DNA from: a virus
Virus record (IMG/VR): IMGVR_UViG_3300037847_002600
Location: 1 to 55,781 of that record
Direction: 5' to 3' (one strand)
DNA: 55,781 nucleotides
A program made the position numbers and the translations under genes. This document shows, piece after piece, positions 1-55,781 of this stretch (position 1 is the stretch's first letter; every line of letters starts with the position of its first letter). Below the pieces are notes generated by a model that saw nothing but the letters and a program-made list of their open reading frames with translations, was not told where the DNA came from and did no database searches.

Positions 1-100
1 AAACTGGTACTAGAACTTCAGTGGGATTGAGGAGCTTGGCTTTTCGCCATGGCCTTGTAGAGTCATCCTCACCTTTGCGTGCCCACGTGCCGTAGACCTT
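1..100. repeat. Left copy of 100-bp terminal overlap
   Basis: Bases 1-100 match bases 55682-55781 at 96 of 100 positions, in direct orientation. The mismatches are at positions 32, 35, 37 and 77. The repeat lies inside the primase-polymerase gene, and joining the two copies restores one open frame. I read it as an assembly overlap of a circular or circularly permuted genome, not a functional terminal repeat, because it is short, imperfect and inside a coding region. Confidence 0.9.
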
Positions 101-694
101 CCAAATACGAGACGGATTGAATACTAGTTGGTCCACCTTGGCTCCGTCCTCGTTGCAGAGGAACGCCAGAGTGTCTAGGGCTTCGCGGATCATAGACGAC
201 GGGATGTCTTCACATCTGTACATGAGGTGGTAACCGTTGCCCGAATCGCCCATCAACGGCGCGGGCCACCCTCTTGTTGTCAAGACTTCTAGTACATTCT
301 GGCAGACACGCTCCGCTTCTGCCTTCTCCTCTGCCGTTGCGGACATACCGGCGGGGCGTTCGGGGTCAATGTCGATAAGTATCCACTTAACTTGTTGAAT
401 ATCGGCGTCATGCGCCTGTTCACCGCGTGAACATGGACCTACTTGGTTAAGACGGGCCGTTTTCGCGCTGTTCTTAATAGGATTGGGTGTAAAGTAGACT
501 CCCGACGCCCCTTTCTGCGATAATGCCCCGGCTGCTTGGGCAAATAGGTCCATATCGTCGTAATATCCGCTGAATGTGCGGTTAACGCCGTCGGCACAGG
601 GGACACGCAGGGCTCGAAGCTCTACGATCTGTCCATCTTCCACGATTGAGCGTAAGGCCGAAGCGATTTCGGCCAGATCTGTTGTATATGGCAA
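1..694 (-). CDS. Primase-polymerase / SF3 helicase, N-terminal part (continues at 55681)
   Basis: This is the N-terminal 231 residues of a replication protein of about 821 aa. The rest is at 53910-55681 across the contig junction. It carries an archaeo-eukaryotic primase (Prim-Pol) domain: metal-binding D108-x-D110 in LIDID, the SGNGYH nucleotide-binding motif at 151-156, and a later acidic residue at D188. The start is the TTG at 694, ten bases after the stop of the HTH gene and behind a strong GGGAGGGG Shine-Dalgarno; no in-frame ATG occurs before residue 48. The family synthesises primers and may extend them. It probably forms an operon with the HTH gene upstream. The domain call is strong. 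The TTG start is inferred from the ribosome site. Confidence 0.88.
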   Translation of the reverse strand, partial: MPYTTDLAEIASALRSIVEDGQIVELRALRVPCADGVNRTFSGYYDDMDLFAQAAGALSQKGASGVYFTPNPIKNSAKTARLNQVGPCSRGEQAHDADIQQVKWILIDIDPERPAGMSATAEEKAEAERVCQNVLEVLTTRGWPAPLMGDSGNGYHLMYRCEDIPSSMIREALDTLAFLCNEDGAKVDQLVFNPSRIWKVYGTWARKGEDDSTRPWRKAKLLNPTEVLVPV

Positions 695-704
695 GTTCCC
701 CTCC

Positions 705-935
705 CTAGAATAGGTTTAGCTGCTTGTGTGATTCGTCATATGGGTCGAACACCTCTTCGGGACGTAACATATGCTCGACTGCTAGGGGAGGGATACGTAG
801 TAAACCCCCCACACGGTAAGCCCTCAGCGTGCCGTTGCGTATCCAGCGTTGGATCGTGCGGATACTTACGTTCATATAAGTAGCTACTTCCCTTATACTG
901 AGCATCTGCTCGCCTAATCTGTCGTTGACTGGCAT
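705..935 (-). CDS. MerR/excisionase-type helix-turn-helix protein
   Basis: A 76-aa protein with a helix-turn-helix of the excisionase/HTH_17 type: the pattern LSIREVATYMNVS, then RTIQRWIRNGTL, then a basic RVGGLLRIP wing. Such proteins bind short DNA sites as regulators, excisionases or replication accessory factors. The ATG at 935 is chosen over one 24 bases upstream because GGGAGGT sits just before it. The gene lies next to the GCTACC repeat cluster (1010-1279) and ten bases before the primase gene, so I infer that it may bind those repeats and control replication or the leftward operon. With no integrase present, an excisionase role is unlikely. Confidence 0.85.
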   Translation of the reverse strand: MPVNDRLGEQMLSIREVATYMNVSIRTIQRWIRNGTLRAYRVGGLLRIPPLAVEHMLRPEEVFDPYDESHKQLNLF

Positions 936-1571
936 CGTACCTCCCTCAAGGTGCGACAAATGGTAACAAATGACGACACCCCCCGCAAGGAAAAGTCTGA
1001 TTTTGCCCTGCTACCGAACTGCTACCGAAGTTTGGTAGCACTACTATCTACTTAGAACCTAGCATATCCTCTGACTGCTACCTGCTACCGTTTTTTCCGG
1101 TATAGGCGCTGTATAAAAAGAGAAAAGTACGTTTACTATTTTCTATATTTAGTAGTTGTATATAGCTCTTATAAAGATGTTACCTGACTACCGGTAGCAT
1201 GGTAGCATGGTAGCATTACGTTTATATTATAGGTTTAACCTCGATACCTTACTGCTACCGAATGCTACCAAACGCTACCGAACTAGCCTCAGCACGGGCC
1301 TGTGAGTACGCGATCGCATAGTAACTACAAGATATACTCGTTTGGTTCCCCTGCGAAAACGTTTACGCACCCCCACATCTATTGGGATTAACTAAAAGTG
1401 AAAAATAGTACGTCATGTTGAGCGCACATATCCGGAACGGATCCCCCTCCCCCCAAAGCGGGGGTGCCTCGCCACGCGCACAAAAGCCCCGCGCACCGCG
1501 TGAGCGGCGCACGAGGCGAGCGGCAACGCGTGACCCGTGCGACGTGCGCCGCAACGGGTGCCGCCTTCGCG
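936..1571. other. Non-coding region upstream of HTH/primase operon
   Basis: No convincing gene is present in these 636 bases. Short open frames at 1363-1877 are Arg/Pro-rich, lack good ribosome sites and overlap one another on both strands. The region holds a direct pair of ACAAATG words ten bases apart (956-962 and 966-972) in the leader of the HTH gene, the GCTACC repeat cluster at 1010-1279, an AT-rich stretch at about 1090-1190, a small inverted repeat ATCCG-GAA-CGGAT at 1431-1443, and a C-run/G-run hairpin near 1448-1467 just past the end of the leftward gene at 1572. The last could be a weak terminator, but it has no T-run. Confidence 0.7.
1010..1279. repeat. GCTACC iteron cluster flanking an AT-rich core (candidate origin/operator)
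   Basis: There are eleven copies of GCTACC or its complement in 270 bases. Plus-strand copies start at 1010, 1021, 1077, 1084, 1254, 1264 and 1274; reverse copies (GGTAGC) start at 1034, 1193, 1201 and 1209. Many extend to GCTACCRAAC. The copies form phased groups: 11-bp spacing at the left, 8-bp spacing at 1193-1209, and 10-bp spacing at 1254-1274. A palindrome CTACCGGTAG is at 1188-1197. The groups flank an AT-rich stretch (about 1090-1190) with several TATA-like words. Iterons beside an AT-rich unwinding region are typical of replication origins, and the neighbouring HTH and primase genes fit that. An operator array is the main alternative. Confidence 0.7.
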
Positions 1572-2054
1572 CTACGAAGCGGTGGGCGGGTACACGCGCC
1601 AGTCCGGCTGCCGACGCGTACCGGCGACCAGCGCCCAGCCCTCCTCGACCGTGCAGCCGGTCGCCTTCGCGACACTACGCGCAGCAGCCACGAGCGTACG
1701 AACCTTGGCGGCCTCGACGGGGTCGAGCGGCTTGATATCCTCCCACGCGGGGAGTGCGTGCATCGGGGACGCGTAGGGCTGGTCAACGCACCCGTATGCG
1801 TTCAGGTCGAACCCTGCCTGCTCCACGTCCCATTCATGCTCTGCCGCCGCGATAAGCATCTCCCCCGCCGTGCGTAGCTGGCAGCGTGTGTGAATGCCCA
1901 CCACGAGCATAGGGCGCTTGATACCCTCTTTTACCCACGTTTGCGCCTCGTCGTCGTGCGCAATGTTCCAGTCGCGCTCCTGATACGCGAAGGTGACCTT
2001 TCGTAGCTTATCGTCTGTGTATACGTTGCTTTTTATTGTGACTTTCGTCTTCAT
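1572..2054 (-). CDS. Hypothetical phage protein (160 aa)
   Basis: I do not recognise a family. The start is the ATG at 2054 (protein begins MKTKVTIKSN) behind GGGAGAG. An upstream extension to 2282 reads through GC-rich, non-protein-like sequence and is rejected. The protein has a beta-rich N-terminus with a Tyr/Trp segment (FAYQERDWNIAHDDEAQTW) and an alpha-helical Ala-rich C-terminal half that includes an EAAKVRTLVAAARSVAKATG helix. It has no signal peptide or membrane segment. It is leftward, like the zinc-ribbon gene upstream, and is followed by the repeat-rich non-coding region. Confidence 0.65.
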   Translation of the reverse strand: MKTKVTIKSNVYTDDKLRKVTFAYQERDWNIAHDDEAQTWVKEGIKRPMLVVGIHTRCQLRTAGEMLIAAAEHEWDVEQAGFDLNAYGCVDQPYASPMHALPAWEDIKPLDPVEAAKVRTLVAAARSVAKATGCTVEEGWALVAGTRRQPDWRVYPPTAS

Positions 2055-2330
2055 TTTCTCTGCTCTCCCTGCACCCGTGCCGAGTGCGTGTGCCCCGTAT
2101 GCGCGGGGCAGCGCGTCCGACGGACGACCCGCCGGACGAAGACAGAATAGCCCGAACCCCGCCCCGTGGTAGTTTTCGTGACATTCCGTGACAACTTCGG
2201 CGATATTCGGCGTTTGCCCGTGGTCCAGCTTCGAATGTCCAGAATGTGTCAAGCTACGCGTGTGTGTACCTACGAAGCGCACGCGTCGTGTGTGCGCCTG
2301 CGCGTGCGCATGTGTGCGCGGGCGCGCCCG
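2055..2330. other. GC-rich leader with hairpins between two leftward genes
   Basis: This 276-bp gap lies between the zinc-ribbon gene and the 160-aa gene. It contains a perfect 7-bp inverted repeat TGCCCCG/CGGGGCA with a 6-base loop (2091-2110) and a second short one, GTCC-GAC-GGAC (2115-2125), close upstream of the next start codon. Alternating pyrimidine/purine GTGCGCG-type sequence fills 2275-2330. The hairpins could be a terminator/attenuator or a structured leader of the downstream gene. No T-run follows them. No gene is seen. Confidence 0.5.
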
Positions 2331-2558
2331 TTACGTATCGCATAGTCGCACGGTCTCGTGGTACGTCTCAAGCGTACGGAACCTGAACGTGCACGCGTCG
2401 CAGCTACGCGTGCGTACTACGAAGCCCGTGCCATCGGGTACGCGCTCGCACGCCCAGCGTTGCAGGTATCGCACGCCCGCGTTGCTCGCGTAATGTATTC
2501 CCGACTTCGCGGTCTCGTGCACGCGTGTGCGTAATGATTTGCATTCCGGACATTCCAT
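2331..2558 (-). CDS. NrdR-like zinc-ribbon protein
   Basis: A 75-aa protein with two Cys pairs: MECPEC at the N-terminus and SCDAC near residue 54, followed by FRTLET. The layout CxxC...CxxC plus (F/L)RT(L/I)E resembles the zinc ribbon of NrdR-type regulators. It lacks the ATP-cone domain of true NrdR, so it is ribbon only. A related protein is encoded on the opposite strand at 7598-7867. The start is taken at the ATG at 2558 (GGGGAG upstream); an ATG at 2579 with GGGGGT is also possible. A nucleic-acid-binding or regulatory role is likely, but the target is unknown. Confidence 0.75.
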   Translation of the reverse strand: MECPECKSLRTRVHETAKSGIHYASNAGVRYLQRWACERVPDGTGFVVRTRSCDACTFRFRTLETYHETVRLCDT

Positions 2559-2904
2559 GCGCGTGCGCTCCCCGTGCATACGTACCCCCGTATGGTGGGT
2601 CGGCTAGTTTGTCAAGAAAAGAGGCGAAAAAAACTTTTTTTGAATATTTTTTGGCCACCTAAACCCGCTGTTTATGCGGTTCTACAGCGATTCAACAAAA
2701 TATCCTGTTTGCAGCCACAAGCCAGCGGGGTATGTGGTCCCTGTCGGTCGTGCTTTGCGTCGCCACGGTGGCGGTGCGGGGCGCGGCTGACACGGGGCGC
2801 GTGCGCAATAGCGCGTATGCGAACCCCGTTTAATCCTTGCGCGTGTACGTTGTGTGCGTGCGCAAACCGTGGAGCGCACGAGACCCGTGCGCGTGGAGGT
2901 AGCG
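2559..2904. other. Divergent intergenic region between leftward and rightward units
   Basis: This region separates the leftward zinc-ribbon gene from the rightward early operon, so it should hold the promoters for both. It contains A- and T-tracts (about 2625-2655), an inverted repeat CGCTGT/ACAGCG (2666-2671 with 2684-2689), and a longer stem ACGGGG/CCCCGT (2792-2797 with 2824-2829) followed by TTTAAT. A weak rightward promoter-like pair is TTTGCA (2708-2713), 17 bases, TATGTG (2731-2736). No credible gene is present; the open frames here are GC-biased shadows without ribosome sites. Confidence 0.6.
2589..2655 (-). promoter_or_regulatory. Possible leftward promoter with A/T-tract upstream element
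   Basis: On the minus strand a perfect TTGACA (2610-2615) is preceded by A/T tracts (2625-2655) that could act as an UP element. A weak -10 candidate, CATACG, lies 15 bases downstream (2589-2594). It would drive the zinc-ribbon gene that starts at 2558. The -10 match is poor and the spacing short, so this is tentative. Confidence 0.35.
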
Positions 2905-3342
2905 ATGAGTCCGAAAGAGAAACTAGCGCATGCGAAACAGGCGCTCGCTTGCTTGGTCGAGGCCGACAAGCTTATGAAGATTGTTAACAAGCCCGTGGAC
3001 AAGGGCGGGCACGGGTGCAAGCACCTCACGCATGGCTGGGGTAAGGCCCCGCAGTGCACACGCCGTGTCACGTGGGCGCGACAGAACGCCGTCAAGTGGG
3101 TGGCGCAGTGCGAAGCGGATTTGGCCGCGCACCAAGAGCGCGTGGAGCGTGAGGAGCGTGAGCGCAAAGCCTTAGAGAATCGCGAGGCACAGAAACGTGT
3201 GGAGCGCGTGCAGTTCAGGCGCACACGTGACTGGAACGCCAAGCTCGGGCACATTCAGAGCGCAATCGCGGACCTTGAGCGTCAGCGCGAGTGTGTACTA
3301 AACAACATGCACGCATACGGTGTGGAGGTGCAGGGTGACTAA
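2905..3342 (+). CDS. Early coiled-coil protein, hypothetical
   Basis: First gene of the rightward early unit, 145 aa. The start is the ATG at 2905 (protein begins MSPKEKLAHAKQ) behind GGAGGT; a 17-residue extension lacks a ribosome site. The central part, about residues 70-110, is a charged heptad-like helix rich in Glu and Arg (AHQERVEREERERKALENRE), which suggests a coiled coil. It has two Cys in a KHLTHGWGKAPQCTRR segment. It overlaps the next small gene by eight bases. The family is unknown; its position suggests an immediate-early role. Confidence 0.75.
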   Translation: MSPKEKLAHAKQALACLVEADKLMKIVNKPVDKGGHGCKHLTHGWGKAPQCTRRVTWARQNAVKWVAQCEADLAAHQERVEREERERKALENREAQKRVERVQFRRTRDWNAKLGHIQSAIADLERQRECVLNNMHAYGVEVQGD

Positions 3343-3493
3343 CGCCGAGTTCGCCCGTACAAACGGGCAGTTCCGCGCAGCGTGTGAGCGTGCAGGCATC
3401 GAGCCTACACGCCGACAGGCTAGCAAGTTTCGAAACAAGACAGGCGCAGCGTGGGCTGCGCGTAAGGGAGGGTCGAATGTTGAATCCGAATGA
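3335..3493 (+). CDS. Small conserved-type early phage protein (52 aa)
   Basis: A short GTG-initiated gene overlapping the previous gene's stop; GGAGGTGCAG lies upstream. The peptide begins VTNAEFARTNGQFRAACE and continues through GIEPTRRQASKFRNKTG. This TN-x-EF-x-RTN ... ACE-x-AGIEPTxRQASK pattern resembles small proteins of unknown function I recall from other phages, which supports a real gene despite its length. It is basic and probably helical. The next gene starts inside its end at 3477. Confidence 0.65.
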   Translation: MTNAEFARTNGQFRAACERAGIEPTRRQASKFRNKTGAAWAARKGGSNVESE

Positions 3494-3692
3494 GTTGTGG
3501 TTGTGGCACACGCAGTCGCCTTCGGGCGAGCGTCTGCCTGTGTTCCGTGCGGCGACGCGTGACGATGCGGTCGAGTACTGCGAGCGCGTAGGTTGGACCG
3601 AGTTGCAGCACTTGCAGGGGTTCTGCCCTCGTGTGTACGAGGTTGACCGAGCGACGGGCGACGTTGTGCGTAGGGAGGTGTCCGATGCTTAG
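3477..3692 (+). CDS. Hypothetical early protein (71 aa)
   Basis: Starts at the ATG at 3477 (MLNPNELWLWHT) behind AAGGGAGGG. The longer frame from 3384 is rejected because its extension overlaps the upstream small gene and lacks a ribosome site. The protein looks like a compact alpha/beta domain: a beta strand (ELWLWHT), a helix (TRDDAVEYCERVGW) and a closing strand (PRVYEVD). This resembles small phage domains that begin with a sequence-entry strand followed by a D-A-x-x-Y helix. I do not assign a function. Confidence 0.7.
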   Translation: MLNPNELWLWHTQSPSGERLPVFRAATRDDAVEYCERVGWTELQHLQGFCPRVYEVDRATGDVVRREVSDA

Positions 3693-3942
3693 AGACCTCG
3701 TACGGAAACACGTGGACGAAGACCTCGTATGGGTGATCGTGATTACATGCGTGCCCATGCTGATAGGCTGTGTGGCTATCAAGCACGGAACACGCAGCGT
3801 CGCGCAACAACATGCGTACACGTGGGAGACATGCGCTCCCCTGTGCGTGATAGACGGACTGCAATACGAGCCTAGGCGGTTCGAGTCTGGTGAATGCTGG
3901 TGCGATATGCAGCGCGTTCGTATGGGGGTGACCGATGGGTGA
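3685..3942 (+). CDS. Small single-pass membrane protein with Cys-rich tail
   Basis: An 85-aa protein starting at the ATG at 3685 (MLRDLVRKHVDED), which overlaps the upstream stop and has AGGAGGT before it. Residues about 14-33 (LVWVIVITCVPMLIGCVAI) form one hydrophobic helix. The C-terminal part has five Cys (ETCAPLCVIDG ... GECWCDM), which may bind metal or form disulfides if exported. Its place in a train of small early genes suggests host interaction. Topology and function are unknown. Confidence 0.65.
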   Translation: MLRDLVRKHVDEDLVWVIVITCVPMLIGCVAIKHGTRSVAQQHAYTWETCAPLCVIDGLQYEPRRFESGECWCDMQRVRMGVTDG

Positions 3943-4033
3943 GCTACTGTTCACAGGTTGGGACCTGTTCTTTTACACGTGCGCCATGTTCGCGCTCTAC
4001 GTCGGGTTCATGCTCGCAGGGGGTGACGCATGA
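3935..4033 (+). CDS. Tiny membrane peptide (32 aa)
   Basis: An ATG at 3935 overlaps the previous gene's end and opens a 32-residue frame. It is mostly hydrophobic and aromatic (WDLFFYTCAMFALYVGFML), consistent with one transmembrane helix. Its stop overlaps the next start as ATGA at 4030-4033, the arrangement seen across this operon, which argues for translation. No family is recognised. Confidence 0.55.
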   Translation: MGELLFTGWDLFFYTCAMFALYVGFMLAGGDA

Positions 4034-4302
4034 GCGCACACGACGAAGCGTATATCGCTAAGTTCCAGCCCGAGCCTAACGCGTACGTCATACACGCGGA
4101 CGACACGGGTGAGATGAAGTACTTCCCCACGGACGCTAGCCTGCGACGCTACTGCATGGGCAAGCGTGCGTGGTGCGGGTTTCGCATGGTAGATGACCCC
4201 AAACACAGACACCACGGCATGTATATGCGTGTGTATCCACGAGACGACGAACGCGTAGTCGAGGGTAAACCTGTGATTGCGTGGGATGGAGGTGAGGAAT
4301 GA
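4030..4302 (+). CDS. Hypothetical early protein (90 aa)
   Basis: Starts in an ATGA overlap with the preceding peptide and ends in another with the next gene. It is soluble and mixed alpha/beta. A central segment TGEMKYFPTDASLRRYCMGKR resembles small substrate- or nucleic-acid-contacting domains, but I recognise no family. It has no membrane segment and no Cys pairs. Translation is probably coupled to its neighbours. Confidence 0.7.
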   Translation: MSAHDEAYIAKFQPEPNAYVIHADDTGEMKYFPTDASLRRYCMGKRAWCGFRMVDDPKHRHHGMYMRVYPRDDERVVEGKPVIAWDGGEE

Positions 4303-4514
4303 ATAGAGACACGGTAGCCACATACCGCATAGGCACCCATACCATAGAGGTAGACCTGTGCTGGGAGGGCGAGGAGGGGGCGTTGATCGTCGGCATTCTC
4401 GATACGCAGGGCGCATGCATTAGTCAAGGCGACCCGCACTATGGCGACGTGAGCAAGCTCCTCGAAACGCTGAAAGAAGTAGACCGGATAATCGGGGATG
4501 GAGGTGAGGAATGA
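4299..4514 (+). CDS. Hypothetical early protein (71 aa)
   Basis: Starts in an ATGA overlap (4299-4302), preceded by GGAGGTGAGGA. The N-terminal half is beta-rich (TVATYRIGTHTIEVDLCWEG) and the C-terminal half has one amphipathic helix (VSKLLETLKEVDRII). It is acidic. The bases before its stop repeat the GGAGGTGAGGAATGA junction found at the end of the previous gene, so the same ribosome-site cassette is used twice in a row. The family is unknown. Confidence 0.7.
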   Translation: MNRDTVATYRIGTHTIEVDLCWEGEEGALIVGILDTQGACISQGDPHYGDVSKLLETLKEVDRIIGDGGEE

Positions 4515-5602
4515 AGATGCAACGAATGCGAAAGATGACATGGGAGCGGTTGCGTGCGTACCACGCGGTGGACTCGTGGGACACGGACGTGCACTCACAG
4601 TTTCGGCCCCACTTGCCGATGCTGCCTGCGTTGCAGTTCGTGCGTCCGGAGGTTGACTGGCTGAACATCACGAACGAGCAGGCGCTAGCGGCTATGGCGC
4701 TCACGCCCTCGGGTGCTGTGCGCCCGTTGCTCACCACGAACACGAAGACACGCAAGAGTACAGGCGTGGGTATGTCCACGATGCTGCTGCACCTGTCGCC
4801 CTCGACCGAGTCCGGCTTCAACACGTGCGGACATGCGACGGGCGTCAAGCGTGGCGTCATCACAGCGGGCGTCGGGTGCGCAGGTAACTGCCTTGTGAAC
4901 GCAGGCCAGATGATACTTGACACGTCCAAGGTCTCGCGCATACTCAAGACCGCGCTATACGTGCACTTCGAGCGTATGTTCCTGTGGTTGCTTGACGACC
5001 AACTAACGCGCCATTCGCGCAGCGTTGCGCGGTTGAACATGCGCGAGGCACGACACGGTACGTCGTACATCACAGGCGTACGCTTGAACGGTACGTCCGA
5101 CATACAGTGGGTGCGTCATCACCGATGGCTCATCGAGAAGCATGCGGACATTGTGTTCTACGACTACACGAAGTACCCGTACCAGTTCGCGAGCGCCAAG
5201 CACGTGGACAAGTACAACGTACGCAACTACCACACGACGTACAGTCTACCATCCACGCGCCGGTCACACCTGCGACGTGCGCGTGAGTGGATGCGGCGTG
5301 GTCACAACGTCGCCATCGTGCTGCGCACACGTGCACAGGTGGAGGAGTTGCTAGCCCGTGGTGAGTTCATGGGGCGGTACGTCATCGACGGCGACGAGTC
5401 AGACGCACGCCCGCTCGACAAGCACGAGCGCATAGGCGGCTGGGTGTTGCTGTATGCGAAGGGACATAAGGCGTGCGGCATCAACCGCGAGGATGATTTC
5501 TTTCTGGACCTGCATCGTGCGGAGTTGCCCACGTGGGAGGAGCGTACGTGGGTGCCGCTTCCCGCACAATACGAGCGAGAGGTGACACATGAGTTGCAGT
5601 AG
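4511..5602 (+). CDS. Gp88-family phage protein (PF17338-like)
   Basis: A 363-aa protein resembling the mycobacteriophage Gene 88 family: LSPSTESGFNTCG (about 95-107), then GCAGNCLVNAG (122-132), then a basic segment beginning SRILKTALYVHFERMF. The conserved cysteines C106, C123 and C127 are in the expected places and suggest a metal or cofactor site, although the biochemical function of the family is not established to my knowledge. A C-terminal region with FYDYTKYPYQFA and HKACGIN completes the domain. It is translationally coupled to the preceding gene and is the largest early gene before the DUF932 gene. The family call is by pattern and fairly confident. Confidence 0.75.
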   Translation: MKMQRMRKMTWERLRAYHAVDSWDTDVHSQFRPHLPMLPALQFVRPEVDWLNITNEQALAAMALTPSGAVRPLLTTNTKTRKSTGVGMSTMLLHLSPSTESGFNTCGHATGVKRGVITAGVGCAGNCLVNAGQMILDTSKVSRILKTALYVHFERMFLWLLDDQLTRHSRSVARLNMREARHGTSYITGVRLNGTSDIQWVRHHRWLIEKHADIVFYDYTKYPYQFASAKHVDKYNVRNYHTTYSLPSTRRSHLRRAREWMRRGHNVAIVLRTRAQVEELLARGEFMGRYVIDGDESDARPLDKHERIGGWVLLYAKGHKACGINREDDFFLDLHRAELPTWEERTWVPLPAQYEREVTHELQ

Positions 5603-5876
5603 ATGTCGCGCAACGTGGGACGACCCGCGTTGCAACTGCGAAGAGGAAGAGCGCGAGCGTCAGTACGACCTCGCGTGCGAGGACTACGAGCGGGAGGTGC
5701 GCGAGTACCGTGCCCGCATCATCGAATACCTAAACGCGTGGATAGTGTACGAGTACCAACTTCACGCGAACGTAGGTGACATACGGGAACCGGTGCTAGC
5801 GCCCGCACCGATACACCCAGACGACATGGAGGAGTGGATAGAGGCGCACGAACCGAGTGAAGAGATTCCGTTTTAA
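5589..5876 (+). CDS. Small zinc-finger-like acidic protein
   Basis: A 95-aa protein with an N-terminal MSCSRCRATWDDPRCNC motif (CxxC...CxC), likely a small zinc knuckle, followed by a Glu/Tyr/Arg-rich helix (about 20-60) and an acidic tail. It overlaps the Gp88-like gene by 14 bases and has GAGAGGTGAC upstream. It is related in style to many phage early proteins. The function is unknown; nucleic-acid or protein binding is plausible. Confidence 0.7.
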   Translation: MSCSRCRATWDDPRCNCEEEERERQYDLACEDYEREVREYRARIIEYLNAWIVYEYQLHANVGDIREPVLAPAPIHPDDMEEWIEAHEPSEEIPF

Positions 5877-5914
5877 CAACACACGTGCGCGGCATGCGCA
5901 CACTGGAGCATAGT

Positions 5915-6199
5915 ATGGGTATATGTAAAGAGGTGTACGCAGGGTACATCGAGATTGACGTGGACTTTGAGGCCGACGAGCTTGTCGAGCACATGGCGGA
6001 TGCGGGCGTGAATATGGAGATGATTTGTAATCACATGCCCAACGACACCATCGTGCGTGGGTTGCGCGAGTACATGTGCGGGGACTGTGACGACCCCGTG
6101 GAGTACAGCATGCTCGAACAACTGGAGGAGCTGGTCAAGGATGCGCGTGCACAGCACGAGCGGGTGAGCGCAGCAGCGCAGGAGGTGAGCGATGGGTAA
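5915..6199 (+). CDS. Hypothetical early protein (94 aa)
   Basis: The start is placed at the ATG at 5915 (MGICKEVYAGYIEID) because CTGGAG precedes it; an upstream in-frame ATG at 5885 lacks a clear ribosome site. It is acidic and mostly helical, with a strand-helix opening (IEIDVDFEADELVEHM) and a Cys pair in YMCGDCDD. It ends inside the next gene's start. No family is recognised. Confidence 0.65.
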   Translation: MGICKEVYAGYIEIDVDFEADELVEHMADAGVNMEMICNHMPNDTIVRGLREYMCGDCDDPVEYSMLEQLEELVKDARAQHERVSAAAQEVSDG

Positions 6200-6431
6200 G
6201 GTAGAGAAGCTTGAGTCAGGAGCGATAGACGTGGGCGGTACGCACAGACCAGTGCACCTGTCCGTGTCGGGAGACGTGAGCGTGCAGGCGTTGGAACGTC
6301 TGTGCAAGACGATGCGTGAGTCGTGCGGAGACGCTGCCATAGCGTATGCGCACACGGATGCAGATGGGAACGAAACGATTCGACTATTCGGGTACGAGCC
6401 TAAGGCTACGGAGGTGAAGCATGGCGCATGA
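6192..6431 (+). CDS. Hypothetical early protein (79 aa)
   Basis: The ATG at 6192 follows GGAGGTGAGCG and overlaps the preceding stop. The protein is a small beta-alpha fold with strands around residues 8-30 and a helix with SVQALERLCKTMRES. Its end overlaps the DUF932 gene by 11 bases, so it is probably co-translated with it. It has no motif that I can name. Confidence 0.7.
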   Translation: MGKVEKLESGAIDVGGTHRPVHLSVSGDVSVQALERLCKTMRESCGDAAIAYAHTDADGNETIRLFGYEPKATEVKHGA

Positions 6432-7550: not shown

Positions 7551-7555
7551 GCCTT

Positions 7556-7585: not shown

Positions 7586-7597
7586 GGAGATACGTAG

Positions 7598-8086: not shown

Positions 8087-8088
8087 AG

Positions 8089-9763: not shown

Positions 9764-10041
9764 TGGCAACGAAGATGATGTTGACAGACGACATAGAGGA
9801 AATGCTAGACCAGATGGCAGACAAGCACGGTGCACGTACCGTCGTCTCCGCACTGGCGGAAGCAACAGGCGAAACCCTGCGTCACTTTGAAGAGAAGTTC
9901 GGGCTGGACGAAGTGGCCGACACTTTTGAAGAAGAGATGATGTACTGGTACATGGGACACGGGCATGCGGGTGCGCGTGCCGAGCGACTACAAGAAGCAA
10001 CTGATGTGTGGATGTGGGCACAGGCTGCGGCTGACGCATGA
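9760..10041 (+). CDS. Hypothetical protein in replication operon (93 aa)
   Basis: Starts at tandem ATG codons (9760 and 9763), overlapping the helicase stop. It is acidic and predicted helical: DDIEEMLDQMADKHGARTV, then HFEEKFGLDEVADTF, then a Met/Tyr-rich turn and a helix ending AQAAADA. It could be a small partner of the helicase or nuclease between which it sits. It has no recognised domain. Confidence 0.7.
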   Translation: MMATKMMLTDDIEEMLDQMADKHGARTVVSALAEATGETLRHFEEKFGLDEVADTFEEEMMYWYMGHGHAGARAERLQEATDVWMWAQAAADA

Positions 10042-46187: not shown

Positions 46188-46480
46188 TACTTCATACTCT
46201 TCTTGCCCTTGCACTTCCAACGCTTGCGCGACAGGTTGTTGGGCGTGTTAGGGTCATTCTGTTTCTCTTTCGAAAGGCGGCTCTTGATACCTGCCGAGCG
46301 AGCGCAGTAGGAGTCGCCCTTAGACGTACCGGGCCTGACACGAGGTCCGCCACCTTTCGCCTGCCCTGCTTGGCCGTAAGACACCTTCTTACCAGACGCG
46401 GTGCGCTTGACACGTGCCTTGCCCTTACGGGGCTTAAGTGCGTTACGTGCGGCCTTACGTCGTTTATCTTTAAGGGACAT
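46187..46480 (-). CDS. Small basic phage protein with GDSYCARSAG motif (97 aa)
   Basis: A highly basic protein (KDKRRKAARNALKPRKGKAR at the start) with the motif GDSYCARSAGIKSRL, then NTPNNLSRKRWKCKG. This Cys/Arg motif resembles small phage-associated domains of the DUF6321 type. It is encoded between the 1950-aa giant and the terminase. Nucleic-acid binding is likely from its charge; a packaging or internal role is inferred. Confidence 0.7.
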   Translation of the reverse strand: MSLKDKRRKAARNALKPRKGKARVKRTASGKKVSYGQAGQAKGGGPRVRPGTSKGDSYCARSAGIKSRLSKEKQNDPNTPNNLSRKRWKCKGKKSMK

Positions 46481-49400
46481 CAGTTCTCCCTCGGAGGCTC
46501 TTCCTCTTTGTTCATAGCACGGCGAGCGGCTTCGCCTGCCATCATCGCAAACGGCAAGGCGTAGAGAGCAGATGGACCACCTCGGCCTGACAGGCTACCG
46601 TCAAAAGACTCAGCGTTAGGCGTTTCCTCTACAATGCCAGCGGTCAGGGCGGAACCTTCGGCGTTCATTTTAACACGTATCATGTCTTTAATCTCTTTCG
46701 TTAAGGGGATAATCTTAATATGACCGTCTTTGAGAGGCTCCCCCTGTACAGTAGCTTGTACGACAGGGAAGTCTGATACCTCTGCGTTTAAGATTTTCGC
46801 AAAGATGCTAGGGAGGAAGGTATCATACGAGGCCCTCACGCCCTTTGAGTTACCAAACTGGATGCCTATAGACGTTAAGATCGTTTCAGCGTTTGGCAGC
46901 GCGATAAAATCGAGGTCCGCAAGATACGCCTGACGTAACATATCATTTGCAATAAGACGTAACCGCTGGTTGACTGAAGTCATAACTGGAATCTGCGAAA
47001 CTTGATCTACGTGCGCATCGGTATTTTCAAACCATGAAAGGAACGCCCTAGGTGACGAGAGCGTACTCACACTCTTCTTCCCAGTCTGTGGATCTACAGG
47101 CACCGAGCCAGTATCATACTTAAAGAAATGCTTAAAGGTAGGAGGAAGTCGGTCGCTACTGACGTACTCACTGCTGGGCGTGAGTCCGTCGTAAAGAACA
47201 GAAAACTGTTCGGGTGGCCGACGAGCGGCCAGTTCATCGACTATACGCGTAACAATCTTCTCGGCCACTGTAGGTGATCGTGCGTCGAGCCTGTCGGCAG
47301 TACCGTAGATTATACTGGCTCCTAGCTCCTTAATCATTGCCTCCTGCTGCTTGTAATCTCTGAAGTTTTCCCTGATCGGTGCCGTTAGCTTTGCAAGCTC
47401 GTGGACTAGGTTAAGCGTCCGTTTAGAGATCCCCAGTCTTTCTAATCCTTCTAGTCGCCAGCTAATCTGCTCAAGATTAGGCTTTTTCCTAGCATACTCG
47501 GCTGCTAATGAGTAAGCATAGTTGGTCAACTTCTGCGTAGCATCTCTGCGCCTGAAGTCGGTCATCTCCGGGTTGGTGAATATATCATACGCTAGACTCT
47601 CTCGAAGCTCCGTGGCCAGAGGGTTAAGTTTTGTCTCTACATCCGCAAAGCGACGCAACGCCCTGTACAGCTTCGTGTCCGTCGTGGGTCCTCCTATCGC
47701 TCCCAAGTCGGCTACTCGCTGATTTATGTCAAACTGTTGTTCGATTAAAACTATGCCCTTGCCTTCAACTGGTGAGTTTTCGATCGGTCCGATGGTAAAC
47801 CTAGCGTGACCGAGGAAGTCATTAGCGGCAAAACCACCGGGTTTAGGGATATAACTCTCGCGACCAAAATGCGAGCTTGAAAAGTCACCCCACGGTGATT
47901 GTCCGCCGAGGCCTGACGGTCCTGACGTAAACGCATAAAACACCTCGCTGGCCTTGTCCAGCATGTCTTGCATCGGTTTGATCGCTTCAGGTGTAGAGTA
48001 ATCATCAAGCGTAGTGTTCACGATGTGCCGTATCTCTTCCTTACTATAAGGAAATACCAAATCTTCGATGCCGGTAGCGCGGGTAACAGGACGTCCTTTG
48101 ACTTTGTAGTTATTCAGACCAACAACCAGATCGTTCGTCATCTTGTGATGTATAGTATGAAGACTACTAAGATTCTCCACAATCGCATCTACCGCCTCTT
48201 TCGATGCGTAGGGTCTATCCAGCCTAGTATTTGTGGCCTCTCTGAAGAGGTCCGATATTTCCTTACCGACGTAGTTTCTTACTGCTTGCTGAGATCTTAA
48301 ACCTCGATGTGTTACTTGGGGTGTTTTCCAGAAATCTTGCATACTCTGCCAAGCATTTCGGGCCAACGCTAGTCGATCTGTTGTCGGTATGTAGTATAGG
48401 CGGGTACCTGTTGCGTCTTGGTTATTAAGCTGATCTACTTCAGGAACATACTTGTTGTAGCTGTGACTGTCGCCATGCACGTTGTCCAACGCGAACTTAG
48501 CACCTTTGTACTCTCCAGCTCCGATGAGCTGCCGCGTTTTATTACTTTGCATATGGTCATTCGTAGTGCCCGGTCCGTAGTAATCGAGAAGCGTCGTGGT
48601 CGCTATTACATTGTTATCTACGACTTGGTCTCCAATAACAGAAGGTAGGTACCCAGAGGACTGTTGTAGAGCACTCAGAACGTTTCGGGCTCTGAAACCG
48701 TCAGGATGCAGGCGCTCGACGTACTGAAGCGCAGGTTCTAATCGGGTACGTATTTCATCTTCGCTGACAAGGACACCTTTACCTTTGCTAGACAATGGTA
48801 GGAACTTTTGCTGGTCTTTATCAAACGCGAACCCCAGAGCTTTGAGGAACTGGTATCTCGCAGACGTACCGGGCTTCACCAAAGGCACAACTTCACCGTC
48901 AATCACACGTGTGCGCTGTTCACCTGTCTTCCTGTCGATCACAGGCATGTCTTCGGTCGTCGCAAATACACGCTCTGGATGTTTAGTGTTCAGCACATTC
49001 AGGGCCCTTTGGAGACGTGAGTACGTAGGAGGCTCGTCTACGTCCGATACGTTTAGGGCACGGGACGCCCCTTCAAGAAGTGCTCGTTCGGCAGCGTCGT
49101 ACCCTTGCACGACCACGGGAGGGCGCGGAGCAAGCGTCTCCACCTTGCTGCCCCAGTTTATAAGGTCGCTCACGGAAGGCTTGTCAGCGTCACTCAGCTT
49201 AAGGTTGTGCGTACGGTAATAATGGATAAGACCTGTTAGGAGATCACGCGAACGCTTCATCCTCGCTGCGTCGTCGGACGCGTTGAGGCCTGCGAAGATA
49301 GCTGGACCGAAGTTTTCAGGGTCGAACACAAACTTAGACATGTCCGGTAGCGAACGCGTCAATGAGTCGATAACGGTCTTCTTCTGGGCTGTATTGTGCA

Positions 49401-52332
49401 GGGGAAGCTGTACGTATTTAGAGTGCCAAGGTGTGTCTTCACCCGCCCCAAAGGGCGTCCAGTTCAGGTAATGCATTTTCGCGAGGTAGGGCTGGCCTGT
49501 TTTACTCGGTATGTCTAACACTTCCATAATCTCAGCGACCCGTGCGTCCGAAAAAACAGCAGCAGGATCATCGTGAGAAGCACGGCTGCTGATAGGAAGC
49601 GCGTAACTCGGCGTGCCTGCGTGGGTTAGGTCCGACTTCCCTTCCACGTTAAACGCGGCGCGACGCGTGTCTGCTTGACTCTGCTTAACAGCATACTTAA
49701 AGTAGCCCTGTAGTTCGGCTATGTCCGCAGGGGCACCGTTTTTGTCTGTCGTATAGCCGTTTGAGAGCCGCTTGAGACCTTCCAAAAATGACGCCGGAAC
49801 TTCTGCCGTATTCGTTGCGGTAAGCATAGGATCGCGGTCGATGATAGGATTAGAGCTGGTTGATGTTAGTCGTTTGCGGACTGATTCATTAGCGACCCGA
49901 CCTAAGCGAGTGTCAGAACCAAACAAAAGTTGTCCTGCATTCCTGCCGAGTTCATCACGGGTCATAGGTGCCGAGCCCGAGTTGTAGTTCAAGGCATATT
50001 TAAGTTCTTGAAAATCGAGGTTTCCTTGGTTCAGTGACTTGGGCAGGCGGTACAAAGGAAAACCCGTGAACTTCTCAAACGACTGGATAGCGTCTGTAAC
50101 GTCCCAAGCAGCGTCTTTACCAGCGGTTCGTGTTGTCTCAAAAACACGATCAAATAGTCTAGCTGCCCTGTTGCGGTATGCCGCGAAAGGCTCCTTTAGA
50201 ATGTCCTCTTGTACAAGTGGAGCCGCGAGAGGGGCATCTGGGTTCACAATCCTTGTATTTGTTGGGCCACCCGAGCCTAAAAACCGTTTGAGTATAGTGA
50301 GCTTCTCGCGGAGGGGTGCGGGAGACTCATGTAAAGCGGACATTACAGCAGCAGGAGCAAAGTCTTCTGCTCCACGGAGAACTTCATCTATCGCCTGTGC
50401 CACTATAGGTTGGTTTACGGCTGCTACCGTATCTTCCGTTGTGCCTCCTTCACTGGTAAAACGCGCCCGTATACCCGCATCTATGCCTAGGTCATCTAAC
50501 ATAGGGGCACTTAAAAAATGCAGCATGTCTGCGTTATGACTAAAAACAGGTTCGCCTGTTTGGTAATGATTAGCTACACGGATCATGGCAGACCCAAGGG
50601 CCCTCTGGTAGTCTGTGACAGCCGAAGTACTATCTTGAGTCTCTGTCAGGCCCGACAGTCGTTGAAAAGTGTTTATCGCGTCTTGCGGTGCAGACGTGCC
50701 GTCCGGGCCGGTGGATGCAGCTAGAAACGCTTCACGTTCCGCATCTGAGTACTCAAGTCTGCCACTCATCATAGGACGAATGGGTTCAACGACCTCTTCG
50801 ACCCCGTCATCTGCGAGAACCTCTTCTAGTCTAGTACCGGCAGGAGACGCATCGGGATCAACCGCATCCTCGTCTAAAGCAGCGTTTATCCGCTGTGTAA
50901 GTTCCTCTGAAAACGCGTCAATGACAGCGGCTTCGCCTATATCTCCAGAGAGTGTGTCAGGGTCAACTGAACTCTCAACCTCGGGACGAACTTCGCTAGG
51001 TGGGAGGCCGGTTTGAACCTCTGTGCGTTGCTCGGGGGTGAGTGAGTCAAGCCACGCTATCACAGTCGGATCGTTTGCGTGCTGTGCCAGTAAGTCGTCA
51101 GCCATGCTGTTAATAAACTGATTAGGGACCTCAGGTCGCTCTTGTGGATCAGGCGTCCGAGTCAGAGGCTGCGTGACCTCATCGTACATGTCCGTGGGCT
51201 CATCGGCTTCGGGCTCTGCACTAGCAGGACGTATACCACGATTAATAGCACGACTGACATCAAGCGTCCGCCGTGTCGCTGCGCTCGGCAGTCGGGACGG
51301 TGTAGTAAGCGTAGTAGGCGTAGTAGGCGTAGTAGACGTATCGGGGGGCGCTGTCGGAGCGTCCGGTGCAGGCTGGGGGGTTACGTCGGCCATGTCGCCG
51401 TAAGGCATACGACGACGCGGCGTGGTGCCCTCCATGAGGATCTCAGTACCATCATCTGTAAAACGATCAGGATGTAGCCGACGATAAACAGCGTCATCGA
51501 ATCTACGAGTAGCGTCCCCTACACGCTCTAGACCTGTGCGTACTCCCGAACTAAAACGCTGGCCTTGATCGCTACGAGCAAAGCGCCCTAGGCCCCGGAT
51601 GGCGGCTTTGGATGCGACTTCGCCTACGCCTTGTCCGATCGCCTCTGCTGCCGCAAAGGCCATAGGGTTCATCGTGTCGAGTGCCGTCTTCAGCTCATCT
51701 CTGTCTAGCTCGCCCCGTTGTGCTTGCCGTGCGAGTCCCTGCATCATAGCTGCTTGTTGCTCGGTCATCAGCCCTGATGCGAACGCCTGTCCTAGAACAC
51801 GTTGTGCTGTCTCTTGATTAGCAAGCATCTCGCCGAACTCGTCAACAGACATCGACCTTTCGCCGTACATCTCGCCGGGTCGAGCTTCTCGAACTGATGG
51901 TCCGTCGGGCATAGGCGGTAGGGGTTCTGCTGGTTGCTGTGCCAGCTTGGCCATGTACTCCGCCGCCGCATCTTCCGGTGTCGTTTGATACTGCGACATG
52001 TCCGGTTGCGTAATGCGGTCAGCGGCCCGCTGCGTCTCAGCTTGGAGTGCTTGGTGTCGGTCACTACCGGAGTACTTGGCTCTGCCCAACATCTTGATAG
52101 GATCGTAGTCCCCACGCACGGCACGCCGCATGGCGTCACCGAAGAACGTATTCTTGATCCCGTCGCCCGGTTCGTAGTCTCCCGACCGCTCTCGCTTGGC
52201 AAGCTCATCGAGTATCCGACGTTGTGGTGTACCGTACAGGTACGACTCCCACGCGTCACTCGCTTTGTTAGCGGCTGCGTCAAGAGGGCGGTTAAGTGCG
52301 GATAAGACGCTTTTGGGGTCCTTCGGATCCAT
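46480..52332 (-). CDS. Giant polyvalent-type protein (1950 aa)
   Basis: The second giant gene, placed between small genes and the terminase, not in the internal core cluster. The N-terminal 350 residues are Pro/Ala-rich and disordered, with Thr/Pro repeats (near 51300). About 1490-1540 carries a HARFTIGPIENSP ... GIVLIEQQFDIN stretch like the HxRF ... EExQSD motif of large polyvalent protein-associated domains, and about 1800-1840 has FIALPNAETILTS ... YDTFLPSIFAKIL, the matching downstream element. The function of these domains is unclear; such proteins are thought to travel in the virion or act early. No polymerase or nuclease motif was seen. Confidence 0.75.
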   Translation of the reverse strand: MDPKDPKSVLSALNRPLDAAANKASDAWESYLYGTPQRRILDELAKRERSGDYEPGDGIKNTFFGDAMRRAVRGDYDPIKMLGRAKYSGSDRHQALQAETQRAADRITQPDMSQYQTTPEDAAAEYMAKLAQQPAEPLPPMPDGPSVREARPGEMYGERSMSVDEFGEMLANQETAQRVLGQAFASGLMTEQQAAMMQGLARQAQRGELDRDELKTALDTMNPMAFAAAEAIGQGVGEVASKAAIRGLGRFARSDQGQRFSSGVRTGLERVGDATRRFDDAVYRRLHPDRFTDDGTEILMEGTTPRRRMPYGDMADVTPQPAPDAPTAPPDTSTTPTTPTTLTTPSRLPSAATRRTLDVSRAINRGIRPASAEPEADEPTDMYDEVTQPLTRTPDPQERPEVPNQFINSMADDLLAQHANDPTVIAWLDSLTPEQRTEVQTGLPPSEVRPEVESSVDPDTLSGDIGEAAVIDAFSEELTQRINAALDEDAVDPDASPAGTRLEEVLADDGVEEVVEPIRPMMSGRLEYSDAEREAFLAASTGPDGTSAPQDAINTFQRLSGLTETQDSTSAVTDYQRALGSAMIRVANHYQTGEPVFSHNADMLHFLSAPMLDDLGIDAGIRARFTSEGGTTEDTVAAVNQPIVAQAIDEVLRGAEDFAPAAVMSALHESPAPLREKLTILKRFLGSGGPTNTRIVNPDAPLAAPLVQEDILKEPFAAYRNRAARLFDRVFETTRTAGKDAAWDVTDAIQSFEKFTGFPLYRLPKSLNQGNLDFQELKYALNYNSGSAPMTRDELGRNAGQLLFGSDTRLGRVANESVRKRLTSTSSNPIIDRDPMLTATNTAEVPASFLEGLKRLSNGYTTDKNGAPADIAELQGYFKYAVKQSQADTRRAAFNVEGKSDLTHAGTPSYALPISSRASHDDPAAVFSDARVAEIMEVLDIPSKTGQPYLAKMHYLNWTPFGAGEDTPWHSKYVQLPLHNTAQKKTVIDSLTRSLPDMSKFVFDPENFGPAIFAGLNASDDAARMKRSRDLLTGLIHYYRTHNLKLSDADKPSVSDLINWGSKVETLAPRPPVVVQGYDAAERALLEGASRALNVSDVDEPPTYSRLQRALNVLNTKHPERVFATTEDMPVIDRKTGEQRTRVIDGEVVPLVKPGTSARYQFLKALGFAFDKDQQKFLPLSSKGKGVLVSEDEIRTRLEPALQYVERLHPDGFRARNVLSALQQSSGYLPSVIGDQVVDNNVIATTTLLDYYGPGTTNDHMQSNKTRQLIGAGEYKGAKFALDNVHGDSHSYNKYVPEVDQLNNQDATGTRLYYIPTTDRLALARNAWQSMQDFWKTPQVTHRGLRSQQAVRNYVGKEISDLFREATNTRLDRPYASKEAVDAIVENLSSLHTIHHKMTNDLVVGLNNYKVKGRPVTRATGIEDLVFPYSKEEIRHIVNTTLDDYSTPEAIKPMQDMLDKASEVFYAFTSGPSGLGGQSPWGDFSSSHFGRESYIPKPGGFAANDFLGHARFTIGPIENSPVEGKGIVLIEQQFDINQRVADLGAIGGPTTDTKLYRALRRFADVETKLNPLATELRESLAYDIFTNPEMTDFRRRDATQKLTNYAYSLAAEYARKKPNLEQISWRLEGLERLGISKRTLNLVHELAKLTAPIRENFRDYKQQEAMIKELGASIIYGTADRLDARSPTVAEKIVTRIVDELAARRPPEQFSVLYDGLTPSSEYVSSDRLPPTFKHFFKYDTGSVPVDPQTGKKSVSTLSSPRAFLSWFENTDAHVDQVSQIPVMTSVNQRLRLIANDMLRQAYLADLDFIALPNAETILTSIGIQFGNSKGVRASYDTFLPSIFAKILNAEVSDFPVVQATVQGEPLKDGHIKIIPLTKEIKDMIRVKMNAEGSALTAGIVEETPNAESFDGSLSGRGGPSALYALPFAMMAGEAARRAMNKEEEPPREN

Positions 52333-52334
52333 GA

Positions 52335-52739: not shown

Positions 52740-53154
52740 TCTTGGCCTCCAGTACTACAGGTTCGGACTGCTCAATCTCTTCGGCGGTGAAGTAGTCACC
52801 ACGGAGCTGTTTGGTCTCTCGTTTCACTTGAACAAGTGCGGTAACTATATCCGTATATGCATCTTGCGGACTTCCTTCAACCGAGTTCTTAGTTGCTAGG
52901 ATAGTAAAGTTGAGTTCATGCCATGCCCGTAGCTCCTGTGCGATAACAGGTGTGATGCGCCCCTCGACCAGTGCGGCCATGATTTTACTGCTGAAACCTA
53001 CCAGATCGTCATACGTATCAATCTGAGCTTGGGCTACAAAGTCTGCGACCTCCTTACGTTTGTCCTTCGGGACCAACATCAACCAAGATGCGTAGTCCCC
53101 ACCAGCACTTGCGGGAGGTCTACGTGCGGGACTTGAGTTCTTCTTCTTTGACAT
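52732..53154 (-). CDS. Hypothetical protein, terminase small subunit candidate (140 aa)
   Basis: A helical protein with LVPKDKRKEVADFVAQAQIDTYDDL (about 27-51, split here) and ITPVIAQELRAWHELNF. Its length, helical content and place upstream of the terminase genes fit a small terminase or DNA-recognition subunit, but the giant gene intervenes and no clear HTH is visible, so this is only a candidate. It overlaps the preceding gene by 35 bases; GAGG precedes the start. Confidence 0.55.
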   Translation of the reverse strand: MSKKKNSSPARRPPASAGGDYASWLMLVPKDKRKEVADFVAQAQIDTYDDLVGFSSKIMAALVEGRITPVIAQELRAWHELNFTILATKNSVEGSPQDAYTDIVTALVQVKRETKQLRGDYFTAEEIEQSEPVVLEAKNG

Positions 53155-53917
53155 CTACAGCCTCTTTGGTTCGATGGACACGACAGCCCGGTGATATGCG
53201 GAGCTTCTTAGGTGTGCCTTTGATTAGATAAGGTAGGTACGCAGGATGTTCTAGCATCTGTTTGCAATATAACGTGTCTGCCAGAAAAGGATTAGACATA
53301 AGCGCCGCAAGGAACTTGCCGCGAGGACGTGTCGGCATCTTCCGTATGAATGGCGGTAGCATCGCTTTACGGAAGTCCGTAGCCGTCGCCCATAAGACGT
53401 ACTGTGGTATCTTCTGCCACTCGGACACAGCGAACGCCATGGCACGATACACTTCGTCCTCGGTGAGGTCGGTGCCCTTGGCTATCTGGATAGGCGTTAG
53501 CCCCATGCCGTAGAGCAGGACGACTAGGTGTGCCATGAACAACCTGTGAGGTGTCGTGTACTTATAGCACATGTTGACGTTGGTTATCTGAAACGGACTA
53601 GGTATCAGTCGATGACGGAACGCAGGTAGTACTTCGTCGGGCCAACGTGTGGGGGACACGAGGCACTTGTCAGACAGCACCCACTCATGCAGCACAGGAG
53701 TCGCTCTGATCCACCTACGGACGTTTTGATTGGACCGGGCGGTAACCTGTGGGTCCCAGTCGAGTGCACGGCCCCTGATGGCTTTCAGGCTCGCTACAAA
53801 CACACCCCATCGCTGACGCTGCATACGCCGCTCCGTCAAGATGGTACGGAGCGCGAGCATATGTGGGTCATGCCTACGGTGCTTGGCGTTTACTTGGAAC
53901 CTGCGGATCTCAGGCAT
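53120..53917 (-). CDS. Helix-turn-helix-containing protein (265 aa)
   Basis: A basic protein with an HTH-like segment LTPIQIAKGTDLTEDEVYRAM (about 139-159), preceded by an aromatic-rich domain and an N-terminal basic region (KHRRHDPHMLAL ... ERRMQRQRW). Its start overlaps the stop of the primase gene by eight bases, so it is the link between replication and late genes. It could be a late regulator or a terminase small subunit. The HTH is judged by pattern only. Confidence 0.6.
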   Translation of the reverse strand: MPEIRRFQVNAKHRRHDPHMLALRTILTERRMQRQRWGVFVASLKAIRGRALDWDPQVTARSNQNVRRWIRATPVLHEWVLSDKCLVSPTRWPDEVLPAFRHRLIPSPFQITNVNMCYKYTTPHRLFMAHLVVLLYGMGLTPIQIAKGTDLTEDEVYRAMAFAVSEWQKIPQYVLWATATDFRKAMLPPFIRKMPTRPRGKFLAALMSNPFLADTLYCKQMLEHPAYLPYLIKGTPKKLRISPGCRVHRTKEAVDVKEEELKSRT

Positions 53918-55781
53918 CTGCGATCCGCATGCTGATAAACGAGGGAGCAGCTACCTTATTGTCTTGGAGGCTGATGCCGTCCCAGCACTTACTGTTCTTA
54001 CCGTTGACACGAAGCACACGAACCTTGTAGTTGCGCTCCTTCATCTGCCGGTTGAACAAGCGGTAGTTCTGCGGACGTTGGTTCAGCTCGTCGCACCACG
54101 CAGCGTAAGCAAGGTACAGGTCCTTCAACGTCACACGCTGTCCCGTACCGATGATGCACTGCTCGTCCATGAACTCAGCGAGCACATCCATCTCCTCACG
54201 GTACTCGTCGGTAGCCAACGTGACGCGTGCCGGTGGACGGAGACCATCTTTCTGCCATGCCAGACATCCCTCGACGAGCTTGGCCAAGATGCCGGGGGCC
54301 TCATTACGTAGCTTCTCTAGGAGGAATGGGTCTTTCTTGTCTGACGAAATCTTTCTTGTCCAAGGGATACGGATGACTCGCCGCCAGATACCTTCGTCGT
54401 TGCCCTTGATGATTGGTCTGTGGTTGGCTGCGATACACAGCTTGTGTGTTGGCATGAACTGATAGAAGTCCTGACGCATCTTGCGAGCGCGGATAGGGTC
54501 GCTACCCGTCAACTGCTTGATGAGCGCCTCCGCAAACGGCTTACCTTTCTCCACCTCTGCGTTAGCTACGAAGCGTGCAGCCTCCAAGTCGGCAACCTCT
54601 GTCGGGTGAGATTCGCCTTTCTTCGCTAGCAATAGTCCGGGGGCACCTTGGATAGCATAGTCACCAAGGACATGCATCAGGGCAAGAAGCGCAGTCGTCT
54701 TCCCGTTGCCGCCTGTCCCTTCCATGAAGAGAAGGACCTGCTCAGTGACGAGTCCTGTAAGACAGTACCCAAAGAACCGATGCAGGAAGTCGATGACCTC
54801 TTGGTCTTCTTCCATCGAGTACGCGAGGAACTCGTCCCACACGGGACACTTGGCGTTCGGGTCGTAGACAACCGGGCTCGTCTTCGTGATAAAATCCATT
54901 CTGTCATGGTCTTGCAGCTTCCCGTTCTTTAGGTTTAAGGTGCCATTTGCTACGTTGAACAACCATGGGTCAGCGTCCAAACGAGAAGCTTCAACAGCGA
55001 TGTCGATTTCTGTGGACGCTAGTGTGACCATCGCGTTAAGAGCGCGAGAGCTTTCACTACGAAGCGCGTGGCGGTAGATGTCCGCCTGTTTGTTGGGGTC
55101 CGTTTCGGCCTCGGCCTCTGTAAAGATAGTGCCAACGGTAGCCTTGGCCATACGATGGACGCCGCCGTCCATATCGCGCTTCCATCGACAGTCATCAAAC
55201 AGATACCACATCCCATGCGTTGGGCAGTGTAGGAGATTCCCATGGAACATACGTACCATCCGCTTTGCATTTCCGAGATCAGTCAAGTTCGGGTTGTCAA
55301 CCGTAGACGGGGTCGTGCTCGACGGAGCACGGGCCTTCTTGGATTTGAATGGCACACCCACCAGTTCTTGCAGGCGCTTCCAGCCGAGATGCTTACCAGC
55401 CTTATTTGTCTCATGGCCCTTACAGTTGGCGTGCAGGCAACCGGCTGCAATCGCCCCGTTATTGAACTGGACGATGTAGGCGCTCCGATCGGTGTGCGAG
55501 GAATCCCATGGGCAAACGTCGAAGACCCAGCGGCGACCCTTCCCCTGCCATGACTTAGCTTCGCCAAGCTGTGGCAGGTTTTGCTTGATCCAGTTATCGA
55601 GGTCAGCGGTTGTGCCTGAACCACTGCGCCCACCTGTAGGCGTAGGTGAGCAGACGAGGAGTCCTTCTAGCTGCTGCTTTGAAACTGGTACTAGAACTTC
55701 AGTGGGATTGAGTAGTTCGGCTTTTCGCCATGGCCTTGTAGAGTCATCCTCACCTTTACGTGCCCACGTGCCGTAGACCTT
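53910..55781 (-). CDS. Primase-polymerase / SF3 helicase, C-terminal part (continues from 1-694)
   Basis: This runs from the right end into the gene started at 694; the frame is continuous when 55682-55781 is overlaid on 1-100, giving about 821 aa. After the primase domain it has a zinc-type motif (C288, H294, C313, H315, C318) and then a D5/SF3 helicase: Walker A EGTGGNGKTT (about 552-561), an ANAEVEKG segment, AANHRP (sensor, about 649-654) and an arginine pair in IWRR (about 665-666). It primes and unwinds DNA at the fork. The apparent start at 55361 (GTG) is not real. The stop overlaps the next leftward gene. Confidence 0.92.
   Translation of the reverse strand, partial: KVYGTWARKGEDDSTRPWRKAELLNPTEVLVPVSKQQLEGLLVCSPTPTGGRSGSGTTADLDNWIKQNLPQLGEAKSWQGKGRRWVFDVCPWDSSHTDRSAYIVQFNNGAIAAGCLHANCKGHETNKAGKHLGWKRLQELVGVPFKSKKARAPSSTTPSTVDNPNLTDLGNAKRMVRMFHGNLLHCPTHGMWYLFDDCRWKRDMDGGVHRMAKATVGTIFTEAEAETDPNKQADIYRHALRSESSRALNAMVTLASTEIDIAVEASRLDADPWLFNVANGTLNLKNGKLQDHDRMDFITKTSPVVYDPNAKCPVWDEFLAYSMEEDQEVIDFLHRFFGYCLTGLVTEQVLLFMEGTGGNGKTTALLALMHVLGDYAIQGAPGLLLAKKGESHPTEVADLEAARFVANAEVEKGKPFAEALIKQLTGSDPIRARKMRQDFYQFMPTHKLCIAANHRPIIKGNDEGIWRRVIRIPWTRKISSDKKDPFLLEKLRNEAPGILAKLVEGCLAWQKDGLRPPARVTLATDEYREEMDVLAEFMDEQCIIGTGQRVTLKDLYLAYAAWCDELNQRPQNYRLFNRQMKERNYKVRVLRVNGKNSKCWDGISLQDNKVAAPSFISMRIADA
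55682..55781. repeat. Right copy of 100-bp terminal overlap
   Basis: The direct copy of bases 1-100, with four substitutions. Read as coding strand codons, it has GCC GAA CTA where the left copy has GCC AAG CTC (one Glu/Lys change and one silent), and CGT versus CGC (silent). The frame is intact in both copies. This fits two related genomes in the sample rather than random error. Confidence 0.9.

Follow-up and report, generated by a model that had tools for sequence, protein, structure and literature searches.

Does the window, a whole virus record of 55,781 nt, end where the DNA of the virus ends, or is it one turn of a circular map that was cut within a replication gene? The left end copy (1..100) and the right one (55682..55781) lie on the same strand and are identical at 96 of 100 positions without gaps, and the earlier note was right on both identity and orientation. 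The probability of at least 96 matches in 100 by chance is about 6e-52, and the runner-up match to the first 100 bases, searched across the whole window, has 46/100. The copies differ at positions 32, 35, 37 and 77, and the longest exact run inside the overlap is 39 bases. When the map is closed, the right copy becomes redundant as the same locus as the left one. Dropping one copy leaves 55,681 bases, and since the overlap is ungapped this is the genome length, in agreement with the earlier estimate.

On the linear record the right end carries an apparent gene of 483 aa (53910-55361, reverse strand) with a GTG start at 55361. This start is an artefact of the linear record: the frame is open to the record end (53910..55781, 623 aa). 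The left end holds the N-terminal part, 231 aa on the reverse strand (2..694), with a TTG start at 694 preceded by GGGAGGGGAAC, which reads as a good ribosome site. Joined, the two pieces form a reverse-strand frame of 828 codons from stop to stop, or 821 aa from the TTG, whichever overlap copy is kept. The four end differences fall into three codons of this one open frame. Two of the codon differences are synonymous (CGC/CGT and CTC/CTA), and the third (AAG/GAA) replaces K with E.

The joined frame is predicted to be a single 821-aa P4-family primase-helicase. PHROG_2478 is collinear over both sides of the join, with positions 41-191 in the left piece and 398-844 in the right piece. The earlier claim that the joined protein has every expected domain stands for D5_N, DUF5906 and Pox_D5, matched by Pfam in the C-terminal part; it does not extend to the N-terminal (Prim-Pol) part, which no Pfam model covers. 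In that part D-x-D, SGNGxH and D residues are conserved in the alignment of relatives and, together with the PHROG collinearity, suggest a primase domain of the AEP type. The join itself falls on residues (NPSRIWKVYGT..RKG) that rank with the best conserved of this part. The C-terminal half of the relatives matches TIGR01613 (P4-family primase) near 1e-91; the first relative scores 305 bits against a curated cut-off of 108.7, and the match recurs in 12/12 relatives, whose proteins were the ones scanned. The proteins of solved structure related to it by sequence, viral C962R primases and one other DNA primase, align over the helicase part. The gene 3' of the primase (53120..53917, reverse strand) has a start overlapping the primase stop by 8 bases.

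The primase is carried across the join site as one gene in 32 other IMG/VR contigs, some of which are near-duplicates of each other, and 30 of the 32 have no stop in the aligned stretch. The primase is followed by the 53120 gene or the 52732-53154 gene in 31 of the 32. The closest comparison is provided by contig L003 from another metagenome, which runs unbroken through the join and is 95-98% identical to the window: its bases 2-283 match window positions 282-1 with 98.2% identity, and its bases 184-4580 match positions 55781-51373 with 95.1% identity. At site 77 L003 agrees with the right end of the window, and at sites 32, 35 and 37 with the left end. As it mixes both alleles, the end mismatches are natural strain variation, and both end haplotypes are made of natural alleles of one locus. 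By this comparison, the 96% end identity is population variation and not error. We regard the comparative contig evidence as decisive for closure, beyond the end overlap alone; together they bear out the proposed join, the splitting of one gene in two and the dismissal of the GTG start.

Seven large records, the window included, have the same gene order and several different cut points. The window is cut inside the primase, G025 and G011 between the DUF932 and HTH genes, G023 inside the SNF2 helicase, G027 in the structural stretch matching window 21-32 kb, G026 between genes 17822 and 20231, and G006 between the portal gene and 52732. Within the structural block a few genes have changed places, such as the homologue of 30155 in G026, G011 and G027; despite this the cyclic order is kept overall. 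The end overlaps are exact over 98 bases in G025, G023 and G011 and over 126 bases in G027, and each of these four is then followed by a divergent base. Such lengths would fit a de Bruijn assembler with k = 99 or 127 meeting a strain fork on a circle. End repeats of k-mer length have been noted in CheckV (PMC8116208) and contig ends of k length in COBRA (PMC10914622). The window is a more diverged overlap case than these four relatives: strain variants at the cut may have let the contig ends overrun each other on different haplotypes, and an exact end-repeat search would miss an overlap of this kind.

One could suppose that the molecule is truly linear, with an imperfect direct repeat of 100 bp at its physical ends and no real join. 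A repeat is indeed present at the ends, and terminal repeats are found in many phages. However, this repeat lies inside a conserved gene that is uncut in 32 other contigs, including L003 at 95-98% identity, and the cuts in relatives fall at other points of the shared cyclic order. We consider this extremely improbable; physical ends at the repeat are ruled out by the relatives and L003 running through them. The four mismatches per 100 bases, and the left arm being nearer to L003 (98.2%) than the right arm (95.1%), could instead suggest ends from different viruses, brought together by chance overlap or chimeric assembly. Against this, one contig has both allele sets mixed, and neither the frame nor the gene order is interrupted, just as in relatives; an origin from different viruses is very improbable, and the mixed alleles rule out a chimera.

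We conclude from sequence comparison that the map is circular, of about 55,681 bp, and that the record end is an assembly artefact. The record very probably represents a full turn of a tailed-phage map, cut in the primase-helicase, and closure restores a replication module. The word circle, used in the earlier note, applies to the map but not to the virion DNA, which is probably linear, as expected from the terminase- and portal-like proteins. The finding is correct in essence and of a familiar sort: a circular map cut by assembly. Inexact end overlaps also occur in four near-complete relatives; where strains vary, a complete phage genome can escape exact-repeat tests and have its genes split.

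A field of short iterons (TGCTACC/GGTAGCA, 1009..1280) lies about 320-590 nt 5' of the restored gene. It contains ten exact copies, and about 12 with one mismatch allowed, spaced by 8-11 bp and arranged in two sets on either side of an AT-rich gap of about 90 bp (1090..1192), a candidate melting site. The inner 88 bp of the gap are 72% AT, compared to 45% in the primase gene. There are ten exact copies in 1009-1280 and nine across the rest of the window, and no 7-mer exceeded four copies in dinucleotide shuffles of the 1-kb region. The field is probably a replication origin, a putative assignment made from its layout in sequence. GC skew was rejected as proof of the origin: its minima lie at distances of 1.3-7 kb from the field and appear to reflect the coding-strand change.

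An iteron field occupies the corresponding position in the relatives, and in most of them it exceeds the shuffles. Most contain 10-14 copies in two sets (one mismatch allowed), and the gap is mostly 60-115 bp with 56-74% AT, compared to 36-51% AT in the primase gene. Only 4-7 copies are found in L117, L118, L139 and L141, and the exact 7-mer counts of L141, L139/L015 and G025 are not above the shuffle range. No HTH gene or repeat field was found with more distant primases (25-36% identical). Additional repeats were observed nearby. In L007, and in the same place in L120, a second array of ten CTTGACA copies is found farther out than the iteron field (CGTAGTA), at 711-960 nt upstream of the primase, and a CTTGACA cluster occurs near the end of G014. 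The word CCTTAAG occurs 39 times in G025 (L083-L084, about 50.8-52.8 kb of the record), and is locally clustered within the hypervariable region.

Between the iteron field and the primase-helicase, directly upstream of the latter, is a gene encoding an HTH_17/excisionase-like protein (705..959, reverse strand; Pfam HTH_17 1.8e-12, PHROG excisionase/regulator). It precedes the primase in nearly all contigs reaching that far. Both the HTH gene and the repeat field are carried by 18 lineages, defined as having primases less than 90% identical to each other. The block layout recurs in most lineages while the iteron word differs: GGTAGCA in the window, and GTAGACA, GGTTACA, TGTTACA, CGTAGAA, CGTAGTA, GTAGTAA, GTAGTCA, TGTAGACGA, ACCACAAA and ACTACAAA elsewhere. 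The words ACCACAAA and ACTACAAA belong to relatives with 82% identical primases; differences among GTAGACA, GGTTACA, TGTTACA, GGTAGCA and others are between lineages further apart.

Word differences were compared with protein differences. The Spearman correlation is 0.15 (p 0.14) for the HTH protein, with a partial rank correlation of 0.02 (p 0.43), and 0.10 (p 0.23) for its recognition part. For the Zn/linker region of the primase it is 0.38, with a partial correlation of 0.35 (p 0.004), although this is a small, exploratory result and one of six comparisons. The distance correlation does not support the HTH protein as the specificity factor. Tentatively, and with clearly less than even confidence, we suggest that this phage clade has a PICI-like bipartite iteron origin in which the layout is kept, the word is rewritten in concert at about ten sites, and the switch follows the primase-helicase more closely than the HTH protein. 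If so, the specificity switch could bar co-infecting relatives or satellites from each other's initiator. The word differences offer a natural set of variants with which to ask what protein determines origin specificity, and how some ten sites and their initiator change together.

The iteron field might instead be a regulatory array or operator on which the HTH protein acts, in which case it would not be a replication origin. Proteins of the HTH_17 type resemble MerR, and one of this kind, BldC, assembles into head-to-tail oligomers on direct repeats about 9 bp long (PMC5859096), a length close to the 8-11 bp spacing observed here; the field is just upstream of the HTH gene and near the coding-strand change. 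On the other hand, two iteron sets around an AT-rich gap are the layout of PICI origins (PMC6092414), and the word differences track the Zn/linker region of the primase, not the HTH protein. An operator is unlikely, and a replication origin is the preferred reading.

For such an origin, the closed map would represent a module of two iteron sets with an AT-rich gap, the HTH_17 protein and the 821-aa primase-helicase, followed by structural genes. Once the linear virion DNA has circularised after entry, the iterons could be bound by the primase-helicase, possibly assisted by the HTH protein. It would open the AT-rich gap, load helicase hexamers and prime, and then hand over to the family A polymerase of the phage, which is encoded in the window. 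Two sets of sites around the gap would suit melting and the loading of two helicase rings for bidirectional replication.

Several other regions of the window deserve mention. The 824-aa protein encoded at 12907-15381 (forward strand) has a uracil-DNA-glycosylase-type domain fused before the 3'-5' exonuclease and family A polymerase. Adjoining exonuclease-like and Sak4-like ssDNA-annealing genes (10038-11782, forward strand) are likely a recombination module next to the polymerase. The region 1450-6400, from the iteron field to the DUF932 gene, has a GC content of about 0.60 in its first part; relatives hold several kb here, mostly without homology to the window, and it looks like a hypervariable early region. 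Rfam gave no structured-RNA match in the window, this region included. Most of the 1950-aa gene at 46480-51373 (reverse strand) is replaced in L003 by unrelated or strongly diverged sequence; since the flanks are 95% identical, this large protein seems to vary in modules. The 2065-aa protein at 21045-27242 (reverse strand) has no convincing family match and only partial similarity in relatives. Among named phages, no DNA match to the primase region and no match to the head-protein candidate (37354-38481) were observed, and the terminase has at most 27% identity among the matches listed. No close relative was found to be carried in bacterial genomes, where the best matches to the primase have 36-47% identity in its C-terminal part.

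The record resembles DTR contigs of CheckV and self_circular contigs of COBRA in being one turn of a circular map with an end repeated by assembly and an arbitrary cut place. However, its overlap is inexact (four mismatches), and the exact-repeat test would miss it. The restored protein is similar to the P4 family (TIGR01613) in its C-terminal half and in the overall order of primase then helicase, but its N-terminal part is unrecognised by Pfam, and its gene belongs to a full-size tailed phage that encodes a family A polymerase of its own. The origins of lambdoid phages have iterons that differ between relatives, as in this clade; in lambda, however, the iterons are inside the initiator gene, and the host helicase is loaded by a separate protein. 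The closest analogy is with the origins of PICIs, including SaPIs, which contain two iteron sets around an AT-rich region, an organisation common to no known bacterial replicon except PICIs (PMC6092414). As in the window clade, the word is specific to each element, and an excisionase-like gene resembling the HTH gene precedes the primase-initiator (PMC6092414). Unlike the field considered here, which is about 300-600 nt 5' of the primase gene, the PICI origin is immediately 3'; and the window represents a phage of 55 kb whose proteins include terminase, portal and adaptor matches, and in which no Phage_integrase domain or tyrosine integrase was found. The origin matters more than the closure, as this phage clade appears to share a layout described for no other known bacterial replicon than PICIs (PMC6092414): the closure reunites a replication module that would combine a layout otherwise reported for PICIs with an unusual turnover of the recognition word.
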